Under the pieces are notes generated by a model. The model was not told the DNA's origin. It was given only the letters and a program-made list of their open reading frames with translations, and ran no database searches. A DNA stretch of 64,000 nt from Phycisphaerae bacterium (GTDB lineage Bacteria; Planctomycetota; Phycisphaerae; SM23-33). The DNA is taken from the NCBI GenBank assembly GCA_030745875.1, contig JASLNT010000039.1:1-64000 (forward strand), read 5' to 3'. Shown one piece after another: positions 3,185 to 32,642 of this stretch (the first letter of the stretch is position 1; every line of letters begins with the position of its first letter). The translations under genes and the position numbers were made by a program.

Positions 3185-4623
3185 GGCGTCGCGAGTTTCT
3201 CAAAACCGCCGGACTGACCGCAGCCGTCGGACTGACAGCAACGAACGCCCCGGCCGCCAAGCCTGCAAAGCAACCGAACATACTTTTCATATTCAGCGAT
3301 CAGCAGCGGTGGGACACCGTCGAATGCTACGGTCGCCCGATTTTCAAGGGCCTGACGCCGAATCTCGACAAGATGGCCGCCGACGGGGTGAGGTTCGCGA
3401 ATTCGTTCACCTGTCAGCCTGTTTGCGGACCGGCCCGCGCCGCTCTGCAGACCGGGAAATACGCATCACAGACCACCTGCCACACTAATGGAATATCCCT
3501 GCCTCGCACCGAGAGGACTCTTGCGCACCTTCTGTCGGCCGCCGGTTACGACGTGGGGTATCTCGGAAAGTGGCATCTCGCCTCAGACACAAAGAAGACC
3601 CCCGGTGTAGCCGCGTTCAATTGTCGCAGCAAGCCCGTACCGCCCGAGAGGCGGGGCGGGTACAAGGATTTCTGGCTGGCGTCGGATGTTCTGGAGTTCA
3701 CCTCGCACGCGTACGACGGGCACATGTTCGACGGAGCCGGACAGAAACGCCTGTTCCCCAGCAACCGATACCGCGTTGACGCCCAGACCGACTGGGCGAT
3801 CGAGTTTCTCCAGTCGCGCAAGGATCAAACCAAACCGTTCTTCCTGTTCGTCTCGTACATAGAACCGCATCACCAGAACGATCACCGCCATTTCGAGGGT
3901 CCGCGCGGATCGAAGGAAAAGTACAAGGACTACCGCATACCGGGCGATCTGGCGGGCACGAAAGGCGACTGGAAGAAGGAGATGCCCGACTATCTCGGTT
4001 GCTGTGCGTCGCTGGACGACAACGTAGGTCGCCTGCGGGCCGAACTGAAACGTCTGGGCATGGATAACAACACCGTGGTGCTCTACACGACCGATCACGC
4101 CTGCCATTTCCGCACGCGGAACGGAGAGTACAAGCGATCCTGCCACGACAATTCCATCCGCACGCCGCTTATCGCCTGCGGGCCGGGCTTTGCGGGAGGG
4201 AAAGTGATCGACCATATGGTCTCGCTTGTCGACCTTACGCCTACTGTCCTGACCGCGGGCGGGGCGAAACCGCCCGACTATCTCCAAGGCCGCCCGCTGC
4301 AGACTCTGGTTGACGGATCGGCGAGGGATTGGCCAGCCGAAGTGTTCGTCCAGATAAGCGAATCCCACACCGGAAGGGCGATACGAACAAAGCGATGGAA
4401 GTATTCGGTCCGCGCCCCAGGCCGACGCAAACCCTCCGGCGGGAGCGAAGTGTACGTTGAGGAGTTTCTATACGACCTCCAGGCCGACCCGCACGAACGC
4501 AACAACCTTGTCGCCGATCCCAAACACGCTGCGGTCCGCGCGAAACTCGCAGCCTCCCTTAAACGCCGCATGGTCGCAGCCGGCGAGAAATCGCCCGCCG
4601 TCAATCCCGCCGCCCAATCATAA
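3181..4623 (+). CDS. Tat-exported sulfatase (formylglycine type), sulfatase 3
   Basis: Third sulfatase, translationally coupled to the second by a 4-nt overlap. It has a twin-arginine signal (MRRREFLK), the metal site SDQQRWD instead of the DDLG form of its neighbours, the catalytic motif CGPAR with Cys82, GKWHLA, and TTDHACHFRTRNGEYK near the second metal site. It therefore belongs to a different sulfatase subgroup from the first two, which suggests that the operon covers more than one sulfate position or linkage. At 480 residues it is full length. Its 3' end overlaps the convergent fucosidase gene by 23 nt. Confidence 0.94.
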   Translation: MRRREFLKTAGLTAAVGLTATNAPAAKPAKQPNILFIFSDQQRWDTVECYGRPIFKGLTPNLDKMAADGVRFANSFTCQPVCGPARAALQTGKYASQTTCHTNGISLPRTERTLAHLLSAAGYDVGYLGKWHLASDTKKTPGVAAFNCRSKPVPPERRGGYKDFWLASDVLEFTSHAYDGHMFDGAGQKRLFPSNRYRVDAQTDWAIEFLQSRKDQTKPFFLFVSYIEPHHQNDHRHFEGPRGSKEKYKDYRIPGDLAGTKGDWKKEMPDYLGCCASLDDNVGRLRAELKRLGMDNNTVVLYTTDHACHFRTRNGEYKRSCHDNSIRTPLIACGPGFAGGKVIDHMVSLVDLTPTVLTAGGAKPPDYLQGRPLQTLVDGSARDWPAEVFVQISESHTGRAIRTKRWKYSVRAPGRRKPSGGSEVYVEEFLYDLQADPHERNNLVADPKHAAVRAKLAASLKRRMVAAGEKSPAVNPAAQS

Positions 4624-7447: not shown

Positions 7448-8608
7448 TTATTGCTTGTCCGTAGAACCGGTCAGCAGCGTCACGTTTTTCGGTGAGAAGA
7501 ACCCGTCGAAGTCGCCGTAGCGGCGGATGTATTCGTTTACGATAAGCGTGTTTTCCGATGGGGTGGAGAACGTCTGTTTGAGACCTTCTTCCGGCGAGCC
7601 TATCAGCCCGATCAGGAATTCCATTCCCCGCTCCTTCAACCGGGTGAAGGTCTCTTCGATCTGTTCGGTTCGAAACGCCATGTGATGCACGCGCGGCCCG
7701 TAATTGTGCAGGAATTTTTCGGTCGGGCCGGATGTTTCGTCCGATTCGTACGGGCGAATGCCCGACGTGAAGACCAGTGCGAAATCGTCGGCCGATAGTC
7801 GCGATACGTTGGTGATCGAGTTGAACAGTTTCACGTAGATCGAGAATTCGAAGTTGTAGTTCGTGAGCGTCATGAACTCCAGGATCGCCGCGTCGCGATC
7901 CCTGGCAGCCACCCGAACGGCTGCATGGTCCAACTCCTTCACATTCGACAGGCCCGGTTCGCATTGCGATGCGATGTCCGTTTCGAACGGCCGGGCCGAT
8001 CGGCTGCGGTAATCCCGCCCGGGTTCTAACCACTGGACGAATCCGATCGAAACGTCCGTGAACGTTGACGGGATCGTCTGGATGAACAGGTGCGTATCGG
8101 AGGCGACGGGCTCGTCTGTGAGGAACTCAACGCCTCGCCCGCGCTGGATTCTCACGTAACGCTCAAGATCGGTTGTGTTGAACACGAGCGTTTCGAGGCG
8201 AGTGTTGGGCAGGTGTGCGGCGTGGGGATAGTTCGTCGTCGATGGAAACGGATTGTCGCCCTTGCGTGAGCGGATCAGAAAGTCCGCAGAACCGCTCGCC
8301 TTCAGGACCAGCGTTGTAAAACGGTCATCCTCGAATGCGGTATCCAGCTCCATACCGGTGAACCTGAGCAGTTCGGCGGCGGCGGATTCCCGCCGGTCCG
8401 GTTCGGTGTTGATTATCACGCATTCGAGCCCGCCGACCAGCCCTTCGATCCCGTCGGCCTTCCGCTGGGCGATCACCTTCGGGGCCTGGTTAAGCAGGAA
8501 CTCATCGCTATTGCTGAAATCGTAGCATTCATCTCCGCAGCCGGAGCAGACATGCGTTTCGGCCTGTTGATAAACGGCTAGACACTTTTCGCAGATCAAC
8601 TTCCGCAT
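7448..8608 (-). CDS. Zinc-ribbon plus HPPD-like (VOC superfamily) protein
   Basis: I chose the ATG at 8608 rather than the ORF-track start, because MRKLICEKC begins a clear domain and GGAAGAA precedes it. The 386-residue protein opens with CEKC-x11-CSGC-GDEC, a rubredoxin/zinc-ribbon-like knuckle. It continues with two vicinal-oxygen-chelate modules. The second resembles 4-hydroxyphenylpyruvate dioxygenase: ELDH, RVHHMAF and VNEYIRRYGDFDGFF supply the His-His-Glu iron triad in the right order. The substrate-binding stretches differ from true HPPD, so the reaction is unknown. It heads the minus-strand group with DUF1593 and the fucosidase. No signal peptide is seen, so a cytoplasmic location is likely. 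Confidence 0.8.
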   Translation of the reverse strand: MRKLICEKCLAVYQQAETHVCSGCGDECYDFSNSDEFLLNQAPKVIAQRKADGIEGLVGGLECVIINTEPDRRESAAAELLRFTGMELDTAFEDDRFTTLVLKASGSADFLIRSRKGDNPFPSTTNYPHAAHLPNTRLETLVFNTTDLERYVRIQRGRGVEFLTDEPVASDTHLFIQTIPSTFTDVSIGFVQWLEPGRDYRSRSARPFETDIASQCEPGLSNVKELDHAAVRVAARDRDAAILEFMTLTNYNFEFSIYVKLFNSITNVSRLSADDFALVFTSGIRPYESDETSGPTEKFLHNYGPRVHHMAFRTEQIEETFTRLKERGMEFLIGLIGSPEEGLKQTFSTPSENTLIVNEYIRRYGDFDGFFSPKNVTLLTGSTDKQ

Positions 8609-8761
8609 AAGACAATTCTTCCCGTGCTGTTCGAGTAACCGCCAACCGCTGACGGGCAGTATCCCCGCATCACAGGAATCTGTCAATGTCTCGGAGTTGG
8701 GGCGCTATGATGTATTCAACAGTATGTAATCGCCGGAACGGACGGAGGGGAGGTAAAGCGC

Positions 8762-30386: not shown

Positions 30387-30920
30387 CTACGGGGGGCTTG
30401 GGGCACCGCGCTGTTGGGCGGAGTTCATCTGTTCATTGCTAGCGTAAATATCTTCGTAGTTTTCGTCCGGGCCGCCGAGTTCTTTCACCACCTGGGTTTT
30501 CAGGTCTTCAGACAGTTCGGTCAGGCTGTTGTACAAGGCGATCGGGTGCAGCGGTTTGGTTTCGTTTTCGTCGTCGGCGGGCGGTTTGGGCGGGTGCTTG
30601 GCGGATTGCTCGGGCAGGGCGAGCATGAACGTTTTCAGCAGGAACTCGCGACATTTGCGCGCGGTCTCACCATCGCCTTCGAGGGCGACTTTGATGTGCT
30701 TTGTCAGGATGGACTTCATCCACTTGGCGGCCATCCTAACTGTTTGCTGGCGGTAACCTTCTACTGTGGCGGCGATTTTGCGCTGGAGGTCGGGGCGTGA
30801 ATGGTTGTTTGCGATCGACCAGACCGTGCGTCGCGATACTCCGGCGCGGGCTGCGATTTCGGAATGGGAAACGTCGCCGGCGGCGATTAGTTCGACGAGT
30901 AGGTCTTCATCGTAGGACAT
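30387..30920 (-). CDS. Helix-turn-helix protein (terminase small-subunit-like)
   Basis: A 177-residue protein with GAGG 7 nt before the start. Residues about 5-40 form a helix-turn-helix (DVSHSEIAARAGVSRRTVWSIANN). It continues with a basic helical stretch and then an acidic, proline-rich tail. The layout resembles phage terminase small subunits of the phBC6A51 kind and homeodomain-like DNA-binding proteins, but no other phage gene is nearby. It lies next to the inverted-repeat element at 30979-31406, so a link to that element is possible but unproven. Confidence 0.7.
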   Translation of the reverse strand: MSYDEDLLVELIAAGDVSHSEIAARAGVSRRTVWSIANNHSRPDLQRKIAATVEGYRQQTVRMAAKWMKSILTKHIKVALEGDGETARKCREFLLKTFMLALPEQSAKHPPKPPADDENETKPLHPIALYNSLTELSEDLKTQVVKELGGPDENYEDIYASNEQMNSAQQRGAPSPP

Positions 30921-30978
30921 GCGGTAACCTCGGGTTTCAGGTTTTGGGTTCTTGGGGTGTGCGATAACGACAACGACG

Positions 30979-31035
30979 TCGCGACTTCGTCGCGAATAGG
31001 TCGACTCGGGCGTCGATCGCTAAACGGGGTGTCGA
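30979..31035 (+). repeat. Left inverted repeat of the 428-bp element
   Basis: It starts with the hairpin TCGCGAC-TTC-GTCGCGA and continues through GTCGACTCGGGCGTCGAT and GCTAAACGGGGTGTCGA. It pairs with 31349-31406. Confidence 0.75.
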
Positions 31036-31348
31036 GACATCAACAGCGGAATCAGCAACACGTTCGATCTTCGGGTTTCAGGTGCTCGTTCCACTAGAAC
31101 CTGGAACGTGAAACAGGGTCCCTTCCTCTTCCATGAACATACTTACTGGCGAATGGGGGGTGGTTTTGGTCACCCCGCGAAAAACTTTTTTGTCCAGAGG
31201 AAATGTGAATCATGCAACAGTATGTACGACAAGTTGTTACGCGATTCGATCGCAAGAAAGAATTTTCAATTTCGACCAACAAAATTTCGAAAAATCTTTT
31301 CGCGCGCAACGAAGACAAGAATGTGTCAAGCGAATATCAAACAAGTAA

Positions 31349-31406
31349 TCGACACTCCGTTTAGCTCATCGACGCCCGAATCGACCTCGTCACGACGAAG
31401 TCGTGA
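31349..31406 (-). repeat. Right inverted repeat of the 428-bp element
   Basis: On the minus strand it reads TCACGAC-TTC-GTCGTGA, then GTCGATTCGGGCGTCGAT and GCTAAACGGAGTGTCGA. It matches the left end except for seven substitutions and one inserted base. Confidence 0.75.
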
Positions 31407-31421
31407 TGCCTAAAACGTCGT

Positions 31422-31478
31422 CCCCAATTGCCAATTGCCCATTCCCAATTGCCCGCCGTTGTGAACCAATTGTGAACC
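31422..31478. repeat. Short CCAATTG and TGTGAACC direct repeats
   Basis: The sequence between the element and the MFS gene end repeats CAATTGCC-type units three times and has TTGTGAACC twice in tandem. It is non-coding; the significance is unclear. Confidence 0.4.
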
Positions 31479-32642
31479 TCAGTCGATCGCGGGCGGTCTC
31501 TTGTAGATCGCCCAGACTGCTGCTGTTATGCATATCCCGAGCACCGGCGCCATCGCCGTCACATATCCTTGTGCAAAGGACCCAGAGGCGGTGTGGATCG
31601 ATTCGCCCGCCAGTCCGGCCAGCGGGCCTATCATCAGGCCCAGACCGATCATCGATTCGTGCCCGCCGCCCGCGTCTACAGAGGCCTCCTTGACGACCAT
31701 CGCGCAGTACATGGCGGACGAATACGACATCCCGGCTGCGAATCCGAACAGCATCTCACCGACGATAACCACAGCGATATTCGAGCCCAGAATCACCATG
31801 AAAAACCCCGCCGGAAGGGCAAGCATCGTAACGCCCAGCCATCTTGCTCGCCCTCGCCATCCCCGCCATAAGCCCAGCGATACGAATGCGGCGAATCGCA
31901 TGACGTCAAGGAGGCCCGAAGTGGCTGGTGCGAGTTGGCGCGAGCATCCGAGTTTCTCGAATATTCGCGGAGCGAGCGGTGCGAACACGAATACCGCTAT
32001 GTAGACCGCGAGCATGATCCATCGGCTGGCGACGAGCAGACCGGTGAGGTGTTCGGGATGCTCGTGTCTGGCGCCGCCGGTTGCGGGCGGAAGGGGCGGG
32101 GCGGGATTGGCTGGCAGGAGAAATGTCATGCCCAGCCCAACCAGCGACATTGCGCCTCCGACAACGAACAGCGCGGTCGGATGGATGCTTATCAGCGGTC
32201 CGGCCGCCGCCAGGGCCAGCGGTACCGCCGCCGCCCAGGTTATGTTGAAGCGACCCATGACCTGTGCGGTCCGTGCGGGGGTGAGTCCGCTGGCGAGAAA
32301 ACCCTCCAGCACCGGCCACTTAGCGCCATTGCCCAGCCCCAGCAGACCCATCGCTACGAACATCACCAGCGGTGAGACGAAGAAATACAACCACACGTGC
32401 ACGCAGACCAGCAGGGCGATAACGATCGTCATCTGGCGCCGCTCACCGATGAGCGACGCGAGCCAATGAGCCCTCCATGCGGCCAGGACGTATCCGGCCC
32501 CGAACGTAAGGGCTAACCAGAGGTTCTCAGCGGAGTCAAACCCCAGCCGCTCCTTGCAGAAGAAGTAGACGCCCCGCTCGTCGAGAATCGTGACGAAACT
32601 CTCGAAGAACGTTATCAGGAGCAGTATTGCGATTCGGTTCAT
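31479..32642 (-). CDS. Major facilitator superfamily transporter
   Basis: A 387-residue integral membrane protein with about 11-12 hydrophobic helices. Features include an N-terminal ERGVYFF segment, a short basic loop GERRQ after TM2-3, GLLGLGNGAKWP in the TM4-5 region and a central charged loop (about residues 185-205) dividing two halves. This is the normal MFS layout and size. The substrate is not evident; a sugar or drug exporter is possible. It is divergent from the small lipoprotein gene. Confidence 0.8.
   Translation of the reverse strand: MNRIAILLLITFFESFVTILDERGVYFFCKERLGFDSAENLWLALTFGAGYVLAAWRAHWLASLIGERRQMTIVIALLVCVHVWLYFFVSPLVMFVAMGLLGLGNGAKWPVLEGFLASGLTPARTAQVMGRFNITWAAAVPLALAAAGPLISIHPTALFVVGGAMSLVGLGMTFLLPANPAPPLPPATGGARHEHPEHLTGLLVASRWIMLAVYIAVFVFAPLAPRIFEKLGCSRQLAPATSGLLDVMRFAAFVSLGLWRGWRGRARWLGVTMLALPAGFFMVILGSNIAVVIVGEMLFGFAAGMSYSSAMYCAMVVKEASVDAGGGHESMIGLGLMIGPLAGLAGESIHTASGSFAQGYVTAMAPVLGICITAAVWAIYKRPPAID

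Follow-up and report, generated by a model that had tools for sequence, protein, structure and literature searches.

The inverted ends of the interval at positions 30979-31406 are two copies of one dispersed double-hairpin repeat. Very probably they are REPs belonging to a single-strand system of the RAYT type (HUH-Y1) that is specific to Planctomycetota, and a doublet of them entered the flanks of the leader of an HTH-protein gene and then multiplied as a passenger on a larger repeat carrying that gene. The window is the whole stretch of 64,000 nt that was analysed; its own genome (G000, 6.2 Mb) consists of 131 contigs (C), and G001 and G002 are congeners. The features are as follows.

30387 to 30920, minus strand: multicopy gene of a 177-aa HTH protein, transcribed away from the element (four genome copies, 84-100%; weak HTH profile matches)
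30454 to 31478 (approximately), no strand assigned: larger repeated unit that takes in most of the HTH gene, the leader with the REP on either side of it, and the right terminus (88-91% in five further places, of which two are truncated by contig ends)
30979 to 31025, plus strand: left REP, with hairpin 1 at 30979-30995, an ATA linker, hairpin 2 at 30999-31018 and the tag GCTAAAC at 31019-31025 (covariance-model match 30979-31032, 76 bits, E-value 2.6 × 10−17)
31036 to 31348, minus strand: AT-rich middle, leader of the HTH gene family (homologues on C78, C84 and C103 of G000 and on C1, C19, C63 and C137 of G001)
31359 to 31406, minus strand: right REP, inverted, with hairpin 1 at 31390-31406, hairpin 2 at 31367-31386 and the tag at 31359-31365, GTTTAGC on the plus strand (covariance-model match 31352-31406 on the minus strand, 59 bits, E-value 1.5 × 10−12)
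31458 to 31477, minus strand: sharp right boundary shared by the copies of the larger repeat, with the minus-strand sequence GTTCACAATTGGTTCACAAC (similarity among the six copies is lost immediately beyond it)

A repeat search in the window paired 31368-31406 with 30979-31017 as arms (39 nt, 87%) and 31349-31365 with 31019-31035 as a second block (17 nt, 94%). The 34 and 16 identities add up to 50 over 56 aligned bases plus two indel columns, which exactly reproduces the 50 of 58 columns counted by hand in the first-pass annotation. At both tips a 7-bp stem carries a 3-nt loop (TTC), as had been described there, and the pair at stem positions 3/15 is G-C in the left tip and A-T in the right. 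The tags of the pair face inward and the hairpin 1 tips outward. A 22-nt end probe with up to three mismatches gave no further match in the window and 0 in 100 shuffles. In its own DNA fold the right-hand copy loses hairpin 2, and single-copy folds were not clearly beyond those of shuffled sequences.

The structure statistics were built on an alignment of 29 copies. The unit is 47-48 nt long and consists of hairpin 1 (TCGCGAC-TTY-GTCGCGA, a 7-bp stem with a TTY loop), an NNA linker, hairpin 2 (GGCCGAC-n5-GTCGGCC, a 7-bp stem with a 5-6-nt loop) and the unpaired tag GCTAAAC. From the single compensatory change at 3/15 it had been proposed that the structure is under selection and not merely a product of recent duplication. 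This view is supported by the genomic copies: over 28 distinct copies the 3/15 pair was G-C in 16, C-G in 6 and A-T in 5, hairpin 2 covaried too (C-G 15, T-A 11), and 97.4% of the cells were paired in the two-hairpin structure, versus 13.8-60% with the partners slid.

With the left end as the query, 41 matches were found in G000. The covariance model (E ≤ 0.01) raised this to 52 copies. With it, the congeners yielded 23 and 44 copies and a genome from another genus of the family 22; two further relatives had 5 and 1 weak copies, and the remaining 25 relatives searched had 0. The genomes are draft MAGs and the copy numbers are lower bounds, because contigs break at exactly these repeats. Thus, both the search of the genome and its relatives for the end and the covariance model built from the copies, which the first-pass annotation had suggested, returned numerous copies with compensated changes; neither a lack of copies nor uncompensated variation, named there as evidence against the element, was seen. 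All but one of 27 copies tested lay outside coding-like frames, compared with 44% coding among random window positions by the same rule.

The middle has a GC content of 44% versus 58% for the window, so its description as AT-rich stands; it is not literally free of ORFs, as short mechanical ones of 71, 74 and 101 aa are present, with no sign of coding. Sequence comparison identifies it as the region upstream of the adjacent HTH gene, which is conserved in this gene family. Homologues of 31112-31331 that carry no REPs were found on C78, C84 and C103 of G000 and at four contig ends of G001, and wherever the surroundings were readable (C78; C63 overlapping C110 in G001) these leaders preceded an HTH gene or what remains of one. 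Because homologous HTH leaders occur without REPs, the REPs would, most simply, have been added secondarily on both sides of a pre-existing leader, and the composite would have multiplied afterwards. HTH homologues are multicopy in G000, G001, G002, G007 and G017, and no viral relatives of the HTH protein were found. In the family the N-terminal domain is conserved and the C-terminus variable, there are several copies per genome, and assemblies break there; one 412-aa frame (G017, C110, 468-1280) contains four tandem HTH-domain matches.

Similarity between the genomic copies of the 428-bp interval runs on outside the hairpin tips: in all six it passes the right tip, and also the left tip where the contig allows. 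All six stop sharply at GTTCACAATTGGTTCACAA (a direct repeat with an 11-bp step), and the same end is found in G001 and on C84 of G000, while the other end of the larger repeat differs among copies. In the window the right end directly adjoins the stop codon of an MFS-transporter ORF (31479-32642). Some HTH-repeat copies in G001 are located 7-28 bp after ORF stop codons and others are not. On C30 (locus L032, 3295-3349) and C18 (locus L033, 358-410) of G000 there is a third REP beyond the HTH gene, and similarity between these copies starts at most 2 bp from its tip.

These boundaries bear on the suggestion that 30979-31406 is a MITE or foldback element, moving as one unit in trans via its 57-bp inverted ends. 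Such an element would account for the presence of the interval in six copies and for a doublet layout equal to that of a RAYT locus minus the gene. Inverted pairs with inward tags also recur in G002, at 76, 88, 336 and 341 bp from start to start and with unrelated interiors; because they do so, REPIN-like doublets exist in the GCTAAAC-tag repeat family. However, movement of the window doublet as a unit was looked for among the copies and none was seen: no copy has the 428-bp unit alone in new surroundings, and the sequence beyond the right tip, and where the contig allows beyond the left, is common to all six. Moreover, lone ends far outnumber pairs among the covariance-model matches, HTH genes elsewhere have the middle at the corresponding upstream position but lack the ends, and the C18 and C30 copies carry the third repeat past the gene. 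We therefore regard the interval as an unlikely MITE. An empty site, the other check suggested for such an element, was not obtained: the two orthologous intergenic regions compared gave none with a clean junction. One of them, between leuD- and pyrF-like ORFs, retains a repeat in all three congeners; the other, an aspartokinase-like upstream region, lacks the repeat in G002 but is too diverged there to align a junction.

A regulatory RNA pair had been offered as the second explanation. In a broader form, the hairpins would be an attenuator, terminator or operator (RNA or DNA) of the HTH gene, and the copies would be kept for this role. The element is indeed directly upstream of the HTH gene (start 30920), and compensatory changes conserve its structure. 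In addition, a tagged hairpin is found at one same site between two ORFs (leuD- and pyrF-like by eye) in all three congeners. In G002 the stem at this site is quite different, GCGGGGC-GTT-GCCCCGC, but CGCTAAAC still follows it, which points either to a constrained rewriting of the stem or to two separate hits on one site. Against such a role, most REP copies are not beside HTH genes, REP-free leaders occur in both G000 and G001, an Rfam scan of the element gave nothing above threshold, and no sigma-70-like or terminator-like site was detected by scanning it. This makes regulation of the HTH gene a very improbable reason for the repeats, although they may have acquired a secondary, co-opted regulatory role.

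The first-pass annotation had also proposed a search for transposases with the same ends, and these were found in the congeners. In G001, a single intact ORF of 179-184 aa lies inside each of two inverted pairs, on C95 (598+/1282−) and on C112 (19831+/20538−); together with C282 and C378 of G002, four loci have inverted REPs with inward tags flanking intact Y1 ORFs of 179-191 aa, and the pairs enclosing these genes are spaced at 666-910 bp. The same protein, 60-79% identical, is present in G000 (C57), G002 (C282, C378), G007 and G012, so that all three congeners are covered. The gene in the window's own genome (C57, 126134-126670) has a recognisable REP upstream only, with a degraded tag.

By its sequence and predicted structure, the flanked enzyme is an HUH-Y1 transposase of the RAYT/TnpA-REP type. 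Pfam Y1_Tnp matched with an E-value of 4.9 × 10−7, above the cut-off in one of two proteins. NCBIfam NF047646 (REP-associated tyrosine transposase) matched with 1.6 × 10−14, at 54 and 51 bits and hence under the cut-off of 80, which in our view governs the naming of a protein and does not define the enzyme type. All 22 proteins compared have an HxH motif (H103, H105) and Y158xxxNP (N162, P163). The best PDB match of the modelled fold (pLDDT 82.5) was 4ER8, the structure of a RAYT in complex with a REP hairpin; IS200/IS605 transposases came next. Its Y---NP signature places the enzyme in class 2 of the scheme for TnpA-Y1 proteins (PMC6006769). The remaining Y1 transposases in G000 (IS200-like of 151-161 aa; long ones of 340-350 aa) do not carry these hairpin ends, nor were such hairpins seen in the flanks of a 42%-identical RAYT relative on C19. 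Four IS200-type genes without these ends are loci L053-L056 (G000 C1, C57, C106 and C4), with frames of 153-181 aa, the C57 copy having an internal TGA.

The idea of a repeat moved in trans by an enzyme with the same ends is thus upheld in its essentials by RAYT genes lying between such ends, although we infer the mobilisation itself. The enzyme type also bears on a further reading, according to which the ends are terminal inverted repeats of a cut-and-paste (DDE) insertion sequence that has lost its transposase gene. Inverted ends around a gene-free middle do resemble a decayed insertion sequence. Nevertheless, the sole transposase between such ends, at four loci, is the Y1 HUH enzyme, and the ends are covarying hairpins that occur mostly as solo copies, which leaves a DDE origin exceedingly improbable.

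A protein-alignment scan of 84,980 species genomes yielded 24 loci. Almost all of the records bear a Planctomycetota title (Phycisphaerae, Sedimentisphaerales); the exceptions were one record titled Nealsonbacteria and one titled only 'uncultured bacterium'. The flanks of these RAYT genes contain perfect or near-perfect hairpins with species-specific stems; GCTAAAC comes immediately after the hairpin and, on either side, points towards the gene. A tagged hairpin was present upstream of 16 and downstream of 15 of 22 RAYTs (0.015 of 22 expected from resampled sequence), and the distal control regions gave three matches all together. Among 24 flanking hairpins, six of eight stem pairs showed two-sided changes, in 35 cells versus 7.5 in shuffles. 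GCTAA was invariant over these hairpins and across species; as they were picked for pairing and tag, this constancy is partly due to selection of the sample, while the stem variety is not. One other RAYT-bearing genome contained 84 hairpin-plus-tag sites with up to two mismatches, against 0 for a reversed control pattern, and five further genomes contained 5-33 sites. The tag resembles an integron attC core site; this candidate was dropped, the matching core being missing at the other end.

Because RAYTs across Planctomycetota are flanked by stem-variable, tag-constant hairpins, the window ends represent a new REP family without the GTAG tag, within an established kind of mobile repeat. The statement that no named family has this end consequently holds in part: the kind has a name, RAYT-system REPs, and no earlier description of the GCTAAAC tag with the double hairpin was found in open full texts, which does not prove its absence from the literature. 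A search of the main text of such papers for the tag, on either strand, in connection with palindromes or REPs returned nothing relevant. On balance we favour a third superfamily of tagged REPs beside GTAG and CGTC, in which a RAYT clade of Planctomycetota (Phycisphaerae and Sedimentisphaerales MAGs) would read the GCTAAAC/GTTTAGC tag, which stays constant although each species has its own stems; in this genus the unit would have gained a second covarying hairpin.

The closest known system is the REPtron with its RAYT and GTAG REPs in E. coli and Stenotrophomonas (PMC8266576, PMC2817692). It likewise has many short extragenic palindromes per genome, an HUH-Y1 gene between inverted copies (Y---NP, nearest fold 4ER8) and an unpaired tag at one hairpin end. 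In contrast, the present tag lies 3' of the hairpin and reads GCTAAAC (5'-GTTTAGC on the opposite strand), not GTAG or GTGG, and in this genus each unit has two hairpins, with a constant tag and species-specific stems. According to the main text of PMC3733652, known REPs have GTAG or CGTC tags; the CGTC-tagged superfamily has no dedicated transposase, unlike the present repeats with their other tag and dedicated RAYT. In the same text, TIRtrons contain a RAYT-like gene (TIRYT) between non-GTAG inverted repeats that form dispersed families, double palindromes are mentioned, and the planctomycete R. baltica is rich in such genes, but the shared motif is GGGGWSAS, and no hairpin-GCTAAAC family was seen in this main text. 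REPINs and BIMEs (PMC3116915, PMC2817692) also consist of two inverted REPs, as do the doublets of 76-88 bp from start to start in G002, whereas the window doublet, 428 bp in extent, encloses a gene leader that probably predates it. Class 3 of the TnpA-Y1 enzymes, from Planctomycetes and Acidobacteria (PMC6006769), is similar in that it includes Y1 enzymes of planctomycetes whose genes are flanked by unusual secondary structures, but it has Y----Q and a CnGA foot instead of Y---NP and GCTAAAC.

By analogy with TnpA-REP of E. coli and Stenotrophomonas, the RAYT would recognise the hairpin and the unpaired tag in single-stranded DNA, cut beside the hairpin and join it elsewhere. In the systems tested, TnpA-REP cuts at a CT beside the hairpin, a choice to which the AG in the GTAG foot contributes (PMC8266576). 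Here, the opposite strand reads 5'-GTTTAGC-hairpin and its AG sits at the position of the GTAG foot, so that it might have a similar role in the choice of CT. Two inverted REPs would have entered the flanks of the HTH leader secondarily, an order of events that we infer, and the composite of HTH gene, leader and REPs would then have spread to at least six places within the larger repeat, which has an end of its own.

The known recognition of REPs by RAYTs rests on the GTAG foot, and a clade with another invariant tag names enzymes to test. In some 15 genomes, the GCTAAAC clade separates in natural data the part that is read as sequence (the tag) from the part that is read as shape (the stem). 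It also accounts for a group of intergenic hairpins in planctomycetes that might else be mistaken for regulatory RNAs.

Some further arrangements of the tag were seen. A second family with a single hairpin and the same tag, GCGGGGC-GTT-GCCCCGC-CGCTAAAC, is present in G002 at loci L119 (C431, about 3420-3580) and L219 (C145), and on C431 its hairpin is nested within a doublet of the first family. In G000, tandem tag repeats (GCTAAACGGGGGT several times) lie beside one REP at locus L042 (C79, near 8600-8709), and locus L046 (C19, 6170-6500) contains four direct-tandem REPs, partly degenerate, with a step of 61-143 bp.
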